From Pseudomonadota bacterium (lineage in GTDB: Bacteria > Desulfobacterota > Syntrophorhabdia > Syntrophorhabdales > Syntrophorhabdaceae): a stretch of DNA of 64,000 nucleotides. The notes beneath the pieces were generated by a model, which saw nothing but the letters and a program-made list of their open reading frames with translations, was not told the DNA's origin and searched no databases. Both the position numbers and the translations under genes were made by a program. The stretch spans positions 62,001-126,000 of the forward strand of contig JAPLKB010000034.1 in assembly GCA_026388275.1 (NCBI GenBank), in the 5' to 3' direction. This document shows positions 6,705 through 52,678 of the stretch, one piece after another (position 1 is the stretch's first letter; every line of letters starts with the position of its first letter).

Positions 6705-6767
6705 TTGCGAATCAGTCACCGGTGCATCGCTTAAGACAGATAGACAACGTTCAAGTCCTTTGTAACT
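6705..6767. repeat. 63-bp direct repeat, left copy
   Basis: The segment from TTGCGAATCAGTC to CCTTTGTAACT recurs at 9407-9469 with only a few mismatches and no gap. This copy lies ~92 bp upstream of hsdM; the other lies ~116 bp upstream of abiEi. It could be a shared upstream regulatory sequence or the scar of a duplication that bounded the AbiE segment. Confidence 0.9.
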
Positions 6768-6859: not shown

Positions 6860-7620
6860 GCTCACAACTTTCCGTTGACACTGTGTCAACCAATTTCAAA
6901 ATCTCCGTAAAACCAATACAGACAAGCATATCCACAACATGCATTTTGAAAACTGTGTATTCAGGGTTTTCCTAAATTCTAACTTCCCAATTCTAAATTT
7001 ACAATGTGTAATTGAAACCGCCCCTTTTTCCTGTATGCGAAAATTCTACCCCTATGAGATGGAAAATACAAACAATTTCAGTTTGGATGTTGAACATTAT
7101 CTTATTGTAGGGATTACAAGTAATATTATCTTTATTGGAGGTATACCGGTATCAGATTCAAAACCATGTCCTCCGCCTTTCTTCCATAACTGTGATGAGT
7201 AACAACTCACAGTTTTCATTTCGCAAACATTTTTCTGCCACTGTGGCAGAAACTTCCAAAATCTCTGTAGAACCAATACAGACAAGGTATTGCAAGAAAT
7301 ACTATTTTGAAAGAGAAGCTGGGCATTTCGAATGGGTTGAATCCAAAATTCCCAATTCTACTGGAAAGAGGCTCATACCCCCCTCACCCCGCCCTCTCCC
7401 CCGAAGGGGCGAGGGAAAGTAGTAACCCTGCAGCAAGCTGCATCATTTGGATTGAAACCGCCCCTTTTTCCTGTATGCGAAAATTCTACCCCTATGGGAT
7501 CAAAAATACAAACGGTTTCAACCTGAATGTTAAATGGATTTTTAATTCAAGCATTGAAATAACGCCTTCCCCCATCCCCAACACTTCCTATCCCCCGCCT
7601 CCATCAAAAACCGCTTAATT
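6860..7620. repeat. Degenerate ~340-bp tandem duplication between abiEii and hsdM
   Basis: No gene is supported in this ~1-kb gap. Copy 1 (about 6860-7200) and copy 2 (about 7205-7620) share blocks in the same order. These are a hairpin with a CTG loop (6874-6890 and 7232-7252), a block CCAATACAGACAAG (6914-6928 and 7274-7287), CCCAATTCTA, and an ~85-bp block starting ATTGAAACCGCCCC (7011 and 7451). Copy 2 also holds a GC-rich inverted repeat (about 7378-7418, CCCTCACCCCGCCCTC...GAGGGAAAG) of the common interoperonic type. The hairpin arms differ between copies but remain fully paired. Confidence 0.75.
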
Positions 7621-9406: not shown

Positions 9407-9469
9407 TTGCGAATCACTCACTGGTGCATCGCTTAAGACGCACAGACAACGTTCAAGTCCTTTGTAACT
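9407..9469. repeat. 63-bp direct repeat, right copy
   Basis: Partner of 6705-6767, from TTGCGAATCACTC to CCTTTGTAACT. It lies between the parB-like stop (9490) and the abiEi start (9291). The two copies enclose the noncoding duplication and both abiE genes. Confidence 0.9.
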
Positions 9470-9489: not shown

Positions 9490-10434
9490 TTATATCTGCG
9501 GAACAGGTTTTGTTACCGGTTTTATTGGCACACTTTCCGGGGCTGTTTTAATCTGCTGTTCTATCAATGAGGATAAAACTTTCAATTCATCGAGAAATGT
9601 CTGAAGGTTTGATTTGGCGTACATACCGGTCTTCTTCTCAAAGTATGATTCTATAGTCTGCAGGCTTGCAACCTTTATTTTCATAGGTATCGGTTTAGGT
9701 TCTGTTGATTTGGGTTTTCTCCTTTTGTACGCGGTGAGTTTCTTTTCAAGCACTGCATTTGTTACAGGCGTCTCAAGTATTTCATCGAAGATGGTAAAAA
9801 AATCGGGGGTCCCAAGGTTCGCGGCAAAAAGATATCCCTGGGAAACCGGGAGTGTTCCAGCAGAAATTACGTCCTGAATTTTAGGGACGAGTTTTAAAAG
9901 CGATATCGTGCGATGCAGCGTCTGTATTGACTTTGCAGAGATTTCAATAATTGCTCTCACAGTGAGAGCAATTTCTTCAGCCAGGCCTTCCGGCCTACGG
10001 TTATAACTCACCAAGTCACTCATTACCCCGTCCACATTATAATTTTTATCAGGATGCTTTGCCTTAATATAGGCAAGCATCCCATTTGCCTGATCTATGG
10101 GATTCAAGTCTTCACGCTGGAGATTTTCAGTCAGTTGAATGGCAAGGATTTCATCTTTTTGTGTAATGGTATTTACTACCCTTGCCGGGATAATTTCAAG
10201 ACCTGCATTGTAGGCGGCAAGATATCTTCTTTCTCCGCAGAGGAGGAGATATTTATCATCCTTTGGTGTTACAAGGACAGGTTCCAGTACACCCTTTTCT
10301 TTAATGGATGCCACAAGAGCTTTAAAGGATTCTGTTGTTTTGTCGATTGATGATCTTATCTGTTTTTCCAGTATGATGCTCTTTAATGGTAGATACTGAA
10401 ATTCCTGATTCTCCATTGTCTTATTCGCTGCCAT
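9490..10434 (-). CDS. ParB/RepB/Spo0J-family protein (orphan)
   Basis: 314 aa. The N-terminal ParB/Srx-like CTPase domain is clear: LPLKSIILEKQIRSS, EKGVLEPVLVTP, LCGERRYLAAYNAG (residues ~70-85) and QLTENLQREDLNPIDQA (~110-126). A central helix-turn-helix region (ISAKSIQTLHRTISLL) and a lysine/proline-rich C-terminus follow. No parA partner is adjacent, and it sits beside RM and AbiE genes. A plasmid- or island-type segregation or regulatory protein is therefore more likely than the chromosomal ParB. The start is ATG 10434, with GGGGG about seven bases upstream. Confidence 0.85.
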   Translation of the reverse strand: MAANKTMENQEFQYLPLKSIILEKQIRSSIDKTTESFKALVASIKEKGVLEPVLVTPKDDKYLLLCGERRYLAAYNAGLEIIPARVVNTITQKDEILAIQLTENLQREDLNPIDQANGMLAYIKAKHPDKNYNVDGVMSDLVSYNRRPEGLAEEIALTVRAIIEISAKSIQTLHRTISLLKLVPKIQDVISAGTLPVSQGYLFAANLGTPDFFTIFDEILETPVTNAVLEKKLTAYKRRKPKSTEPKPIPMKIKVASLQTIESYFEKKTGMYAKSNLQTFLDELKVLSSLIEQQIKTAPESVPIKPVTKPVPQI

Positions 10435-10496
10435 GTATAACCCCCTAGTTTTGTAAGTAATATCAAAAGATTTTTACTCTTTTGAGAGTGCTCTCC

Positions 10497-10680
10497 TTGT
10501 TCGGTCAGCGGCATGATTGTAATGCTCATCTTCGGCGTTCTGCATCGCCTTGTGCCCTCCAACATACATAAAGTATAGTTTCCGGTCTACAAGACTCACA
10601 GCCCATCCGAATCTGAAACATCACTGCCATGCCACTGCCCACTCAACCCGGATTCACATATACGATTATGTGAATCCGGA
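10497..10680 (-). repeat. Structured dispersed repeat, copy A
   Basis: Read on the minus strand, this 184-bp segment aligns along its whole length with 21141-21325. It opens with a perfect hairpin (arms 10648-10660 and 10667-10679, CCGGATTCACATA). Next come TTGAGTGGGC..GGCATG and, at the far end, CATGCCGCTGACCGA. The hairpin arms differ from copy B at two pairs that changed together. A 31-codon reading frame starting MYVGGHKAMQNAEDEHY (10569-10474, minus) lies in it, just upstream of the parB-like gene; it has only a weak ribosome site and I do not call it a gene. Confidence 0.8.
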
Positions 10681-15441: not shown

Positions 15442-16227
15442 ATGGGCGATATACTTATAGGTACAAGCGGTTTTTCCTTTGATGACTGGGTGGGAGAGGT
15501 ATATCCTGCACATATAAAAAAGCATGAAATGCTGCCATATTATGAAAAAACATTAGGCTTCAGGGCACTCGAAGTCAATTACACATACTATTCGATGCCT
15601 TCAAAGAAGACTATGGAGTCTTTTTCGATGAAAACATCAAGGGATTTTTCTTTTGTGGTAAAAGCCTATAAGGGCCTGACCCATGAAAGGACCGGAAGCC
15701 CCAAAGAGCAGTGCACACTTTTTAAGGACGGGGTAAGTCCTCTGGGTGACAGTCTGAAGGCGCTTCTTTTTCAGTTTCCTTATACGTTTCTGCCTGACAG
15801 TAAAAACATAGACTATTTGAAGATGCTTAGGCAAGAGTTTGAAAATTTTGAATCAATGGTAGAATTCAGGAATGCAAAATGGTTTGATAATGGATATCTT
15901 GATATTCTTAAAGAATTGTCTTTCGGCTGTTGCATTGTTGACGAACCCAGGCTGAAGGGCCTATTACCATTTTACCCTGTCCTTACGTCAGATACAGGAT
16001 ATTTCCGGTTTCATGGAAGGAACAAGGCATGGTTTAACGAACCGGTAAATGTTAGATACGATTATCTTTACTCGGAGAAGGAACTTGAAAAATTCGTTGA
16101 TCCGATAATGGATATTTCCAGCAAAGCAGGGAATACCTTTGTATTCTTCAACAACTGTCATCTGGGCAAGGCAGTAAAGAATGCGCAGATGATGAAAGAG
16201 ATGATAAAAAAAGTGAATAGTCGTTAG
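15442..16227 (+). CDS. DUF72 family protein
   Basis: 261 aa. Clear DUF72 (YecE-like) signature: ILIGTSGFSFDDWVGEVYP at the N-terminus, FSFVVKAYKGLTHER, LFQFPYTF, MVEFRNAKWF, YFRFHGRN and FFNNCHLGKAVKNA. It is a TIM-barrel-like family of unknown biochemical function. ATG 15442 is preferred over in-frame ATGs at 15418/15424 because AAGG lies seven bases upstream and the conserved domain begins there. The last codons form part of a 31-bp inverted repeat. Confidence 0.85.
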   Translation: MGDILIGTSGFSFDDWVGEVYPAHIKKHEMLPYYEKTLGFRALEVNYTYYSMPSKKTMESFSMKTSRDFSFVVKAYKGLTHERTGSPKEQCTLFKDGVSPLGDSLKALLFQFPYTFLPDSKNIDYLKMLRQEFENFESMVEFRNAKWFDNGYLDILKELSFGCCIVDEPRLKGLLPFYPVLTSDTGYFRFHGRNKAWFNEPVNVRYDYLYSEKELEKFVDPIMDISSKAGNTFVFFNNCHLGKAVKNAQMMKEMIKKVNSR

Positions 16228-16405
16228 TGAACAGTGAATAGTGAAAAAACCGGGAAACGAAGGAGTTTACGGTTTGGTTCTGATTTTGTTTTTTACTATG
16301 TCCCGCATTAAGCGGGGTTAAACCATACACTAACAACTATTCACTGAGATTAATGAGTTACGGGTTTGATTTTTACTATTCACTGTTCACTAACGACTAT
16401 TCACT
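16212..16405. repeat. 31-bp perfect inverted repeat pair
   Basis: Arm 16212-16242 (AGTGAATAGTCGTTAGTGAA...) is the exact reverse complement of 16375-16405; the left arm overlaps the end of the DUF72 gene. A shorter related copy (AACTATTCACTGAG) lies at about 16335-16348. Such AGTGAATAGTGAA-like strings are common spacer repeats. The arms leave the ROK gene ribosome site (GAGGT, 16406-16410) just outside. Confidence 0.9.
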
Positions 16406-17829: not shown

Positions 17830-18211
17830 AGTATTTTCAGTTTAATTCACCACTATAAATCCTCAATAAGGACTATAGAAAGGTTCAGTGTAATATTTTA
17901 TCATCACTAAGCTTTTTAATCTCTATTATTTTTTACCTGTGTTGATTTGATATAAATCCATCTTATTTCCATAAAGCTGCAGTAACAACAACTGTATGCA
18001 GCAAAGTTTTGCCTGAAATAAATCATATCGAGTGGCAACCAATATTCTCTGCGTAAAAAACCTCATCGTAGAAATGGTCAGTTTGTGGGGACAGATACGC
18101 CTGGCAATCAGCGTCACAATTGAAGAGAGCAAGTGTTGATGAGGGAAAAACCCACATCAAAAACTTATTTTAATAACCCATAATATCAGATACTTACACG
18201 ACACAAAAATG
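17830..18211. other. Intergenic region upstream of hicB and left of the IR-flanked cassette
   Basis: AT-rich, no supported gene. A partial copy of the cassette end sequence (GATGAGGGAAAAAC, 18138-18151) lies in the same orientation as the left inverted repeat. Confidence 0.6.
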
Positions 18212-18400
18212 GTGAGGGAAAAACAAATGATTTATACTCACTGAACCACGTACAGCTTCTTGAAGTTGAGAGTTTGTCGTAATTACGATATGTATGCTAT
18301 ATTTCAGTCAGTAATAGATCGTATCTCTATTTCTTTAGTCCCGAGAATATTGAATTTCAACATTTATCATTAAGATTGCCAGTTGAAGGTCGTATAATTC

Positions 18401-20355: not shown

Positions 20356-20751
20356 GTCCGTTCTGTATGGAATAATGAATGAACTAATCCGATAACATGA
20401 TGCATTACTAACGGAAATTCTTAGAGTATTGTTTTATACTAACCATTTGCTAGCGAAGAAGACCCTGGTTCCAACACGTTGCGTATAAATCATTAGTTTT
20501 TCCCTCACGGTTTTTCCATCCACTAACATACCAATAATATTAAAATTATTGGTATCATTTTTAATGGTGTTTTTCACGTACGTCAAACATCGTATTGAGC
20601 TTTTTTGTGGTAGCTGTTAATTAAAACAAAATGTCATAGTTTATAAACTTGCATATAAATAAAGGTATTGTCAAAAGTTACATGATATAATGATGGTAAT
20701 GTTTTGTAAATACAAGATGTTATGATATAAAATAAGGAGGAGGTAAAAATC
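20356..20751. other. Intergenic region right of the cassette
   Basis: Contains the right 26-bp inverted repeat (20483-20508) and then very AT-rich DNA leading to the strong ribosome site AAGGAGGAGG of the next gene. No supported gene. Confidence 0.6.
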
Positions 20752-21033
20752 ATGTCAGAAGAAAAAGGAATAGGCTACCGGGTAGTCGGTACAATAAAGG
20801 AAGTAAAGGGATATTGCAATGCAGGGCATAAAGTTGGGGAAAAAATTGAGTTGAGCGGGCATCGCTCAGGCAATATGTGCGGTTTTTTCTATCATGATTT
20901 GTTCCCCTATGTTATTATGCTACAGTTTGGCGGTGGTTTCCCTGTCGAATGGGGAGACCCTGACGTTATTGAAGCCAGTTGTATGGATATAAAGAATGCA
21001 GTAACGATAGAACTAAGACGCATAAAAGAGTAA
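20752..21033 (+). CDS. TIGR04076-family small protein
   Basis: 93 aa. The pattern GYCNAGHKVGEKIELSG, MCGFFYHDLFPYVIMLQFGGGFPVEWGDPD and CMDIKNAVTIELRRI matches the TIGR04076 family, which has conserved cysteines and unknown function and is common in anaerobes. Conserved Cys residues at positions ~23, 42 and 81 might bind a metal. A strong Shine-Dalgarno (AAGGAGGAGG) lies about eight bases before the ATG. It stands alone, followed by a structured repeat. Confidence 0.8.
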   Translation: MSEEKGIGYRVVGTIKEVKGYCNAGHKVGEKIELSGHRSGNMCGFFYHDLFPYVIMLQFGGGFPVEWGDPDVIEASCMDIKNAVTIELRRIKE

Positions 21034-21140
21034 TATATTATCTTTTAATAATAAGGCGTTTGTTAAAAAGTTATCAAGTTGAGCAATGGATAAACAGTAC
21101 AAAAAAGGTACAAAATAAAATTTGAAAATGTATTTTTTAT

Positions 21141-21325
21141 TCCGGGTTTGCATAAACATATATGCAAATCCGGTTTGAGTGGGCGACGGCATGTTGGGAA
21201 TTTTGCAGATGTGGATGGGCTGCGAGATTTGCAGGCCGCAGACGTACTGAACGTACGTCGGAGGATCGCAAGGCGAAGCAGACCGCCGCAGATCAAAATT
21301 CCCAACATGCCGTTGACCGACCAAG
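21141..21325 (+). repeat. Structured dispersed repeat, copy B
   Basis: 185 bp that align end to end with the minus strand of 10497-10680. Hairpin 1 has arms 21142-21154/21161-21173 (CCGGGTTTGCATA/TATGCAAATCCGG). A long stem has perfect 19-bp arms at 21187-21205 and 21294-21312 (CGGCATGTTGGGAATTTTG). An inner palindrome lies at 21241-21259 (GACGTAC/GTACGTC). Open frames across it are by-products of the repeat. It ends ~64 bp before the phosphomannomutase start. Confidence 0.85.
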
Positions 21326-21388
21326 AGAAAACCAAGAAAAACATAAAATGCAAAAGGACAATACCTGCAGCCATCAAGGGAGGGAAAC

Positions 21389-22744
21389 ATGAATAAAGAG
21401 ATTTTTAGAGAGTATGATATAAGGGGCACAGTAGAGCAAGACTTAACTGACGATGTTGTGAAAAATATCGGCAGAGCCCTGGCAACATACATGTCCGACC
21501 GCGGTAAAATAAATGCATCTGTGGCAAGGGATGGCAGACTAAGCTCGGAACATTTTAAAAATCTTCTTGTTGAAGGCATGGTTGAAAGCGGCCTGAACGT
21601 CGTTGACCTTGGGCAGGCGCCTACCCCTTTGTTTTATTTTTCTCTTTTTAATCTCGGGATGGAAGGCGGAATTATGGTAACGGGGAGTCACAACCCGCCT
21701 GAATTCAACGGCTTTAAAGTAGCTTTTGGAAAAGCCACTCTTTTCGGTGATGAAATACAGGATTTGAGAAAAATAATAGAAGAAGAGAGATTTGTCCACG
21801 GAACAGGCTCCTTCAGAGAGTACAAAAATATCGTTGATGATTACTACACGTTTTTGCGTGGGAATATTAAACTCAATAAAAAATTCAAAGTGGTAATAGA
21901 TGCCGGAAACGGTGTTGGAGGCGTGGTTGCTCTCCCTATTTTGAAGGAAATGGGGCAGGAAGTAATAGACCTTTATTGTGATGTGGACGGGCATTTCCCG
22001 AACCATTTTGCAGACCCGACAGTTGAAAAAAATCTTGTTGACCTCAGAAAAACGGTCGTTGAAACAAAAGCCGATGTCGGCATCGGCTACGACGGCGACG
22101 CCGACAGGATCGGTGTGATTGATAATGAAGGGAACATTATCTGGGGCGATTATCTTATGATCATTTTTGCAAGAGATATTTTCAGGGAGAAAAAAGGCGC
22201 CTACTTTGTGTCTGAGGTAAAATGCTCGCAGAACCTCTATGAAGATATTGAAAAGCATGGCGGCATTCCGATTATGTGGAAGGCAGGTCATTCATTGATA
22301 AAAAAGAAAATGAAGGAAGTTAATGCCGTTCTCGGCGGCGAGATGAGCGGGCATATGTTTTTCGCTGACAGATTTTTCGGATACGATGATGCCATTTACG
22401 CATCTCTGCGGTTCCTTGAGATCATGGAAAGAGATGGGAGGCCTGTTTCCGAGTTTCTAAAAGACCTTCCGAAGCTGTACTCAACACCCGAGATACGGAT
22501 AAACTGTCCGGATGAAATAAAGTTCGACGTAGTTAAAAAACTGACTGAATATTATAGAAGTAAGTTTAAAATTATCGATATAGATGGTGTAAGGTTGGTA
22601 CTCGATGACGGTTGGGGGCTTGTAAGACCTTCGAACACAGGACCCATACTTGTTCTGCGCTTTGAGGCAAAGACCGAAGAGGCGCTGGAAAGAATCCAGA
22701 AAATGGTCAATGAAGACCTTAACCGGATTATAAAGGAGAATTAA
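21389..22744 (+). CDS. Phosphomannomutase/phosphoglucomutase
   Basis: 451 aa, normal length for the AlgC/ManB-type alpha-D-phosphohexomutase family. It opens with FREYDIRG. The phosphoserine loop is TGSHNPPEFNGFK (~residue 104), the magnesium loop is DGDADRIGV (~residue 236) and the sugar-binding loop is GGEMSGHMFF (~residue 320). The C-terminal phosphate-binding part reads VRPSNTGPILVLRFEA. It interconverts mannose/glucose 1- and 6-phosphates for cell-surface polysaccharide. GGAGGG lies just before the ATG. Confidence 0.93.
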   Translation: MNKEIFREYDIRGTVEQDLTDDVVKNIGRALATYMSDRGKINASVARDGRLSSEHFKNLLVEGMVESGLNVVDLGQAPTPLFYFSLFNLGMEGGIMVTGSHNPPEFNGFKVAFGKATLFGDEIQDLRKIIEEERFVHGTGSFREYKNIVDDYYTFLRGNIKLNKKFKVVIDAGNGVGGVVALPILKEMGQEVIDLYCDVDGHFPNHFADPTVEKNLVDLRKTVVETKADVGIGYDGDADRIGVIDNEGNIIWGDYLMIIFARDIFREKKGAYFVSEVKCSQNLYEDIEKHGGIPIMWKAGHSLIKKKMKEVNAVLGGEMSGHMFFADRFFGYDDAIYASLRFLEIMERDGRPVSEFLKDLPKLYSTPEIRINCPDEIKFDVVKKLTEYYRSKFKIIDIDGVRLVLDDGWGLVRPSNTGPILVLRFEAKTEEALERIQKMVNEDLNRIIKEN

Positions 22745-35197: not shown

Positions 35198-35302
35198 GCC
35201 CCAGTAATGAGTATCATCTTGTCTTTTGTAGCGACTTCTGTCGCGAGAGGGGGTGGCTCCGACAGCTTTGCTGGTGGAGGGGGCGACGTGAGCCCCAGTA
35301 AT
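35180..35302 (+). repeat. Dispersed hairpin repeat, copy A, with 29-bp flanking direct repeats
   Basis: 29 bp (GTGGAGGGGGCGACGTGAGC...) at 35180-35208 are repeated exactly at 35274-35302; the first copy includes the ThDP gene stop codon. Between them lie hairpins GCGAC/GTCGC (35231-35244) and CAGC/GCTG. The segment 35228-35302 is related to 49196-49320 and 52600-52678. Confidence 0.85.
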
Positions 35303-49195: not shown

Positions 49196-49320
49196 AGGAC
49201 GAGTTAGCCCCGGTAATATCAAAGAATCTATTCAGGACGCTCAGCGTGCGAGAAGGGGAGGCTCTGACGGCTTGGCCGGTGGAGGGGGCGACCGGGTACC
49301 CGTTCACGGGTGTCCCGGTA
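49196..49320. repeat. Dispersed hairpin repeat, copy B
   Basis: Related to 35190-35302 over GACGAGTTAGCCCCGGTAAT, GCGAGAAGGGGAGGCTCTGAC and GGTGGAGGGGGCGAC. It ends in a perfect hairpin ACCCGT-TC-ACGGGT (about 49297-49310). It lies between two convergent genes. Confidence 0.8.
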
Positions 49321-52599: not shown

Positions 52600-52678
52600 A
52601 GTGAGCGAGGGGGAGAAACTCCGACAGCTTTGCCGGCAGAGGGGGGCTACTTGGTAACCGTTCACCGGTGTCACGGTC
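52600..52678. repeat. Dispersed hairpin repeat, copy C
   Basis: Shares GAGCGAGGGGGAG, CTCCGACAGCTTTGCCGG, and GTAACCGTTCACCGGTGTCACGGT with copy B at 49230-49320. The terminal hairpin ACCG-TTCA-CCGGT corresponds to ACCCGT-TC-ACGGGT in copy B, with the pairing maintained. Its end touches the rsmG stop codon. Confidence 0.8.

Follow-up and report, generated by a model that had tools for sequence, protein, structure and literature searches.

The window analysed here, a stretch of 64,000 nucleotides, carries two copies of a structured repeat, which we refer to as A and B, and these are old copies of a MITE whose ends have become degenerate. We propose, with a probability of roughly 0.6, that both carry a two-hairpin module whose + strand is the one that matters, and that this module serves as the 5' leader of the gene behind it.

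Structured core and pairing constraint

The core of copy A, which consists of a 5' hairpin and a long hairpin, occupies positions 10497-10680 on the minus strand, and that of copy B occupies 21141-21325 on the plus strand. A scan of the window with a covariance model, R1, built from 38 aligned copies of the same genome, gives these two full copies with scores of 190 bits for A and 210 bits for B, together with two other matches (36 and 47 bits) that are the A and B sites on the opposite strand. The BLAST identity between A and B is 74%. Both are predicted to fold stably, with z-scores of -7.8 for A and -11.8 for B, and for either copy none of 200 dinucleotide-preserving shuffles folds as well. 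The original prediction, made from the letters of this DNA, was that the minus strand of A and the plus strand of B align over their whole length, and the alignment bears this out; the paired double change that it reported in the first hairpin is real, and the long outer stem of B is present. Its unit of about 185 bp holds as the structured core but not as the full element, because the common sequence extends beyond both copies, to about 10457 for A (the right end) and to about 21055-21365 for B.

The genome to which the window belongs (G000; 3.53 Mb in 71 contigs, 99.5% complete) contains many more such elements. BLAST gives at least 44 matches with B as the query and at least 60 with A, and R1 gives 85 matches at E <= 0.01, many of which are the same palindromes on the opposite strand. 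When these opposite-strand matches (28-66 bits) are discarded, together with a duplicated row and three places with weak matches (C20:1023, C25:20923 and C12:11752), 57 distinct copies are left, none of which overlaps a heuristically called gene, so that all are intergenic. The two copies first described are real but understate a family of 57 members; the finding that was to count against the idea, namely a lack both of more copies and of constrained pairing, is contradicted on both points, by the 57 copies and by strong covariation. No conserved region further upstream is common to the copies in this genome, and the upstream gaps contain other repeats.

RNAalifold predicts 60 pairs from the 38 aligned copies, and in 27 of these at least one copy has changed both partners and kept the pair, against a mean of 14.7 in shuffles. 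Cells with such double changes number 171 against 46.9, and 97.5% of cells are paired against 89.9%, with none of 500 shuffles as high in any of the three measures. As a control, partners shifted by 1-3 columns yield 5-8 such pairs and 10-25 such cells. Double changes also occur in 23 of the 30 pairs predicted from a joint phylum-wide alignment of 30 sequences.

The two strands differ in how well they fold. In each of 98 sequences the + strand RNA folds lower than the complement (38 of 38 from G000, 19 of 19 from G010, 11 of 11 from G019, 8 of 8 from G043 and 22 of 22 at the phylum level), which, as the sequences are related, amounts to one consistent trend and not to 98 tests; one phylum-level row (L217) is mis-cut. 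At pairs picked by Watson-Crick covariation alone, G-U outnumbers A-C by 73 to 17 in the copies of G000, and when these are counted pairwise G-U leads in 10 and A-C in 7. The corresponding figures in relatives are 201 to 24, or 27 pairs against 6, in an alignment fitted to the model; after model-free MAFFT realignment they are 23 to 8 in G010, 3 to 2 in G043, 3 to 5 in G019 and 31 to 15 in the 22 distant sequences. On balance these sequence patterns favour use of the + strand as RNA, or as strand-specific single-stranded DNA. Of the structured RNA offered as one possibility in the original prediction, the structure therefore stands, on the 27 of 60 double-change pairs and the strand asymmetry, whereas a role as transcribed RNA is something that we infer.

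A protein-coding core was considered and rejected. By eye, an open reading frame with an SD-like start enters the core, yet columns 30-105 are without codon phase, the variability in the three phases being 0.119, 0.132 and 0.134, which is no difference; in the 3' half of the core the phases are uneven, at 0.157, 0.176 and 0.083, one of them being less variable. At the gathering score, Rfam finds only tRNA in the window and no family that matches A or B. At a relaxed threshold around B it returns two miRNA models, both far under their cut-off, and it gives no match on eight phylum-level loci.

Ends, target duplications and the search for a transposase

On the left the full unit opens with GGTATTGTCAAAAGTT, as a rule 122-125 nt ahead of the core, and on the right it closes with AACTTTTGACAATACC, usually 59-64 nt past the core. 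Copies with both ends are 360-471 bp long and bounded by GGTATTGTCAAAAGTT inverted repeats, the element's own ends being of the GGTATTGTC type. At up to 4 mismatches, 27 of 56 copies have a recognisable left end, 19 a right end and 14 both, a count that excludes L143, which lies at a contig end. An 8-bp target duplication is perfect in 3 of the 14 two-ended copies and matches at 7 of 8 positions in one more; when flanks are paired across different copies, 7 or more matches occur in 0 of 182 pairs. The other 10 have no clear 8-bp duplication, and among these L144 matches at 8 of 9. There are also derivatives with both ends, L206 with a partial core left by an internal deletion and L207, a 143-bp element that has no core. 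Because of the terminal repeats, the duplications and the deleted derivatives, we identify the element as a MITE: it is shorter than 500 bp and has no protein, it has terminal inverted repeats and a target duplication, and it is multicopy and intergenic. This identity of the A/B family is a strong one. That the repeat might be non-autonomous and mobile had been raised as a possibility beforehand, with a search for target duplications as the check, and the terminal inverted repeats, the 8-bp duplications (3 of 14 perfect and 1 of 14 at 7 of 8, with a null of 0 in 182) and the internally deleted derivatives all speak for it.

In A and B themselves these ends are worn. The right terminal repeat of A, at 10457-10472 on the minus strand, reads AATCTTTTGATATTAC against AACTTTTGACAATACC, with the ATG of the next gene 21-22 nt on, and the left end of A is unrecognised, its best match having 6 mismatches. 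The gene behind A, at 9490-10434 on the minus strand, encodes a ParB_N-domain protein of 314 aa (Pfam PF02195, E 2e-14). The left repeat of B (GGCGTTTGTTAAAAAGTT; 21055-21072, plus strand) was read by eye and has 5 mismatches in its best 16-nt match; its right repeat (21350-21365, plus strand) ends in GGACAATACC, has 7 mismatches in 16, was identified by eye on the strength of its final 10 letters and lies 23 nt before an ATG. This ATG belongs to the gene of a phosphoglucomutase/phosphomannomutase (451 aa; 21389-22744, plus strand; Pfam PF02878, PF02879, PF02880 and PF00408). At 20664-20679 on the plus strand a perfect left terminal repeat GGTATTGTCAAAAGTT stands alone, with no core attached; it lies 72 nt upstream of an ATG at 20752 and is probably a relic.

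The 8-bp length of the duplication suggests that the mover would be a DDE-type transposase acting in trans. No autonomous element with the same ends was recognised in the 46 genomes of the order with a 16-nt pattern at 1 mismatch; this end motif occurs 37 times in G000 and one to three times each in 14 of the 45 other genomes. The sole inverted pair of ends at insertion-sequence distance, C29:39638/42046 in G000 (2.4 kb), is made up of the outer ends of element copies L126 and L056, and none of four ORFs that lie between these has a Pfam match. The locus as a whole (L214:1839-4262, equivalent to C29:39638-42061 in G000) has two copies in opposite orientation around about 1.6 kb and is possibly a composite unit. 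G000 contains no match to PF12762 (IS1595) and none to PF01797 (Y1_Tnp). An IS1595-type element in G011 (L224) does make 8-bp duplications (AAGATTTC) but has other ends, GGTAATATAATACTTGAC, and an IS1595 parent seems doubtful, being absent from G000 and having matches in G011, G007, G041 and G006 without a clear copy of the element's ends. Carriage by a plasmid, phage or virus was likewise set aside, with no match for B, for the phylum-level element L257 or for three patterns.

Gene context and relatives

The neighbour downstream of the 57 copies is in sense in 40, antisense in 16 and not called in one, a sense bias of 40:16 with a two-sided binomial p of 0.0018, and for 34 of the 40 sense neighbours the start is no more than 100 nt from the core. 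Measured from the right end (at up to 5 mismatches), the start codon of a sense gene is 21-25 nt away in 18 of the 24 copies that have this end. In 19 of the 24 a script identifies a start codon accompanied by an SD-like motif, 15 of these at 21-25 nt, and three were added by eye, namely L127 (24 nt, no SD), L073 (23 nt) and L145 (24 nt, with the true end 31 nt further on). Start codons are closer in L003 (17 nt), L063 (19 nt) and L129 (13 nt), and absent at the fixed distance in L044, L050 and L138. B (23 nt) and the deleted derivatives L206 and L207 (25 nt) fit the spacing, and L208, which has the right end alone, has a start codon at 16 nt. The SD begins at +12, that is 3 nt past an 8-bp duplication, in 13 of 25 listed sites, a list from which L044, L050 and L138 are excluded. 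As background, 9,122 oriented intergenic positions were taken from 1-26612 of the window, a stretch that has A and B inside it, and at 0.93% of them a sense start lies 21-25 nt away.

No such spacing is seen on the other side. In 19 copies the upstream neighbour is antisense, and the start of that gene never falls at the mirror distance, which would be about 147 nt from the core; the closest cases are 98 and 226. We found no sense-strand promoter-like site inside A or B, and -10-like sites are only weakly enriched ahead of left ends, at a level that 18 of 500 shuffles reach.

The R1 core is present in 12 of the 46 genomes of the order, the own genome included, which has the most copies found; G010 has 32, G041 has 22 and G019 has 19, with G010 and G019 belonging to the same family as G000. 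One 8,432-nt contig is found in both G019 (C79, L124) and G010 (C105, L152) with the element at the same coordinates, and since these MAGs are of different genera this is a probable binning carry-over. In a phylum-wide set of 395 genomes, R1 matches at E <= 1e-4 in at least 44, five of them from the own order. A further 22 weaker matches, one of which (L245) is from the own order, mostly have CAGATG...CGTAC..GTACG...GCAGATG in a hairpin of roughly 125 nt, with some departures. Pattern matches in Myxococcus, Pyxidicoccus, Archangium, Comamonas and Ferranicluibacter were examined and are not family members.

With a G044 copy as the query there are at least 47 matches in G044, at least 41 in G085 and at least 40 in G164. 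Several G044 copies are more than 95% identical, which argues that the family is mobile there, now or recently. The elements of G164 and G260 are 152-155 bp long, their ends are the hairpin arms themselves, and perfect 6-bp duplications occur in 10 of 12 loci with full-length ends, the other two having 5 of 6 matches and an offset copy; three more loci that have no left end stand outside the 12. Mismatched pairs give a 6-bp duplication in 26 of 1,122 cases, in a tally that includes both strands and repeated places. G044 and G085 have TA or YTA, possibly a duplication, at both ends in most of 16 loci, and in 5 of the 16 the 3' end coincides with an antisense neighbour's stop codon. L246, L247, L251, L259 and L271, from these two genomes, have the 3' end at the antisense stop with an offset of -1, which looks as though insertion at TA had left the stop intact. 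The inner structure is thus common across lineages, and the ends and the length of the duplication differ.

The position relative to genes in these relatives is more varied. Of 30 copies, two have the spacing described above (L110 in G001, 23 nt, and L151 in G010, 22 nt), and in G010 the conserved stretch passes the element end and includes SD-like letters. At the 22 phylum-level loci, 13 elements lie between two antisense genes, and 13 have a 3' end no more than 18 nt from the stop codon of an antisense gene. Thirty further loci in four genomes have no dominant arrangement.

Proposed mechanism, rival explanations and known systems

A plausible mechanism is that a MITE with no recognisable protein of its own would be moved in trans by a transposase, and that the + strand of its two-hairpin module would be the functional strand, most likely as RNA. 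Insertion would target a site just 5' of an SD, in sense, or would survive best there. A host promoter would then transcribe the element, which would become the 5' leader of the gene, and stable hairpins would most likely make this leader neutral to useful by protecting the mRNA 5' end while leaving the ribosome-binding site free, so that the insertion would not be purged. Of the two possibilities for the site, we favour targeted insertion because selection alone predicts spread distances and both orientations. The leader-RNA role and the SD targeting are what we infer with good reason. A stronger form, which we advance tentatively and would not bet on, is a mobile 5'-leader cassette that would insert only in sense, its right end locked to the SD and start-codon region at about -23. 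Each jump would then give another gene the phylum-conserved, strand-specific RNA module as its leader, and the module would itself have travelled on transposons whose ends differ between lineages.

The same terminal repeats and target duplications, together with the intergenic location of all 57 copies, would be expected of a plain MITE in which the hairpin is the DNA substrate of a transposase, as a cruciform or a single strand, the RNA has no role, and the bias in position arises from purging of harmful insertions. The G164 and G260 elements fit this, with hairpin arms that are the ends and perfect 6-bp duplications at 10 of 12 loci. However, the same core is found with different ends and with both 6- and 8-bp duplications, so no single transposase explains its conservation, and the strand asymmetry is unexpected for a double-stranded substrate. 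Purging moreover predicts broad distances and both orientations, but 18 of 24 copies fall within 5 nt in one orientation, and we regard this explanation as unlikely, if still a serious one. Fixed spacing to SD and ATG in a sense leader position, along with the covariation, might instead indicate a cis-regulatory, riboswitch-like leader RNA that spread by duplication and not as a transposon. We consider this improbable in view of the target duplications and terminal repeats, the core-deleted derivatives L206 and L207 at similar sites, the unrelated genes behind A and B (a ParB_N protein and a phosphomannomutase), the 16 of 57 copies that face an antisense neighbour and the lack of an Rfam match.

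Strand-specific folding, and the presence of Y1 transposases in 34 of the 46 genomes of the order, bring to mind a REP/RAYT-type element that a Y1 (HUH) transposase transfers in single-stranded form. REP/REPIN sequences with their RAYT resemble the element in being palindromic, multicopy and extragenic, but REPs, as far as the accessible text of PMC3733652 describes them, are 20-40 bp long with GTAG or CGTC tags, whereas here the core is about 185 nt, the inner hairpin is about 125 nt, and the RAYT partner has no counterpart in G000. The 8-bp and 6-bp duplications also stand against such transfer, as does G000, which at 99.5% completeness has no Y1_Tnp match though it has the most copies found in the order, and this origin seems to us very improbable.

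Several known systems resemble the element. Correia elements carry known promoters and RNase III sites, and by description they differ here from A and B, which have no sense promoter-like site. The accessible portions of the sources describe them as multicopy MITEs of Neisseria that lie predominantly just upstream of genes and are processed in mRNA (PMC10969869). They describe ERIC of enterobacteria as a multicopy, mostly intergenic sequence of about 127 bp that forms one long hairpin and alters transcript levels in Yersinia (PMC10969869, PMC2267715). Compared with ERIC, the element has an extra 5' hairpin and, in its own lineage, outer ends, 8-bp duplications and a fixed position before the start; neither B nor L257 has a blastn match in an E. 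coli collection. Closer to the phylum, the Chunjie MITE of Geobacter uraniireducens, in the part of PMC10969869 that treats it, is 178-235 bp long with terminal and direct repeats and has 38 full copies and partial ones, a likeness by description alone (MITE, terminal repeats, multicopy). The same applies to multicopy intergenic palindromic families mentioned for Geobacter metallireducens and G. bemidjiensis in the accessible text of PMC2700814 and PMC2996986, which are alike by description alone in being palindromic and multicopy. The accessible portions of these five papers (PMC2700814, PMC2996986, PMC3733652, PMC10969869 and PMC2267715) contain no description of the present family, of which there may be an earlier one under another name. 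One 11-letter word of the core occurs in six papers, and the titles among the matches listed are unrelated.

Bacterial MITEs are commonly regarded as passive debris. Here a MITE retains an RNA-like structure under pairing constraint, as do its relatives phylum-wide, and this structure is outside Rfam. If transcription were confirmed, the element would represent a natural route for placing one leader RNA onto many unrelated genes. This raises the questions of whether the transposon aims at ribosome-binding sites, and of what preserves the structure of a passenger RNA as the transposon ends change.

Other repeats occur in the window and near copies elsewhere. The region of the ParB_N gene behind A has similar DNA (74-89% identity) near L004, L016, L041, L044, L143 and the weak place L135, and this gene family, annotated only at A, may itself be duplicated or mobile. 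Two direct-repeat pairs are found near A, at 6705-6767 and 9407-9469 (63 nt, 92%) and at 7011-7094 and 7451-7534 (84 nt, 88%). A 36-bp inverted repeat (AAAAATGGTGAGGGAAAAACAAATGATTTATACTCA) is situated at 18205-18240 and 20480-20515; with a comparable TTTTTCCCTCATGGTTTTT stretch present 5' of the element copy L124 in G019, it may belong to a further repeat family. The 36-nt inverted arms of ACTATTCACT-like units are at 16212-16247 and 16370-16405, and such a unit recurs beside L044 and L208. Finally, a G-rich 45-nt repeat (GCGAGAGGGGGTGGCTCCGACAGC...) is present three times, at 35243-35287, 49248-49292 and 52605-52649.
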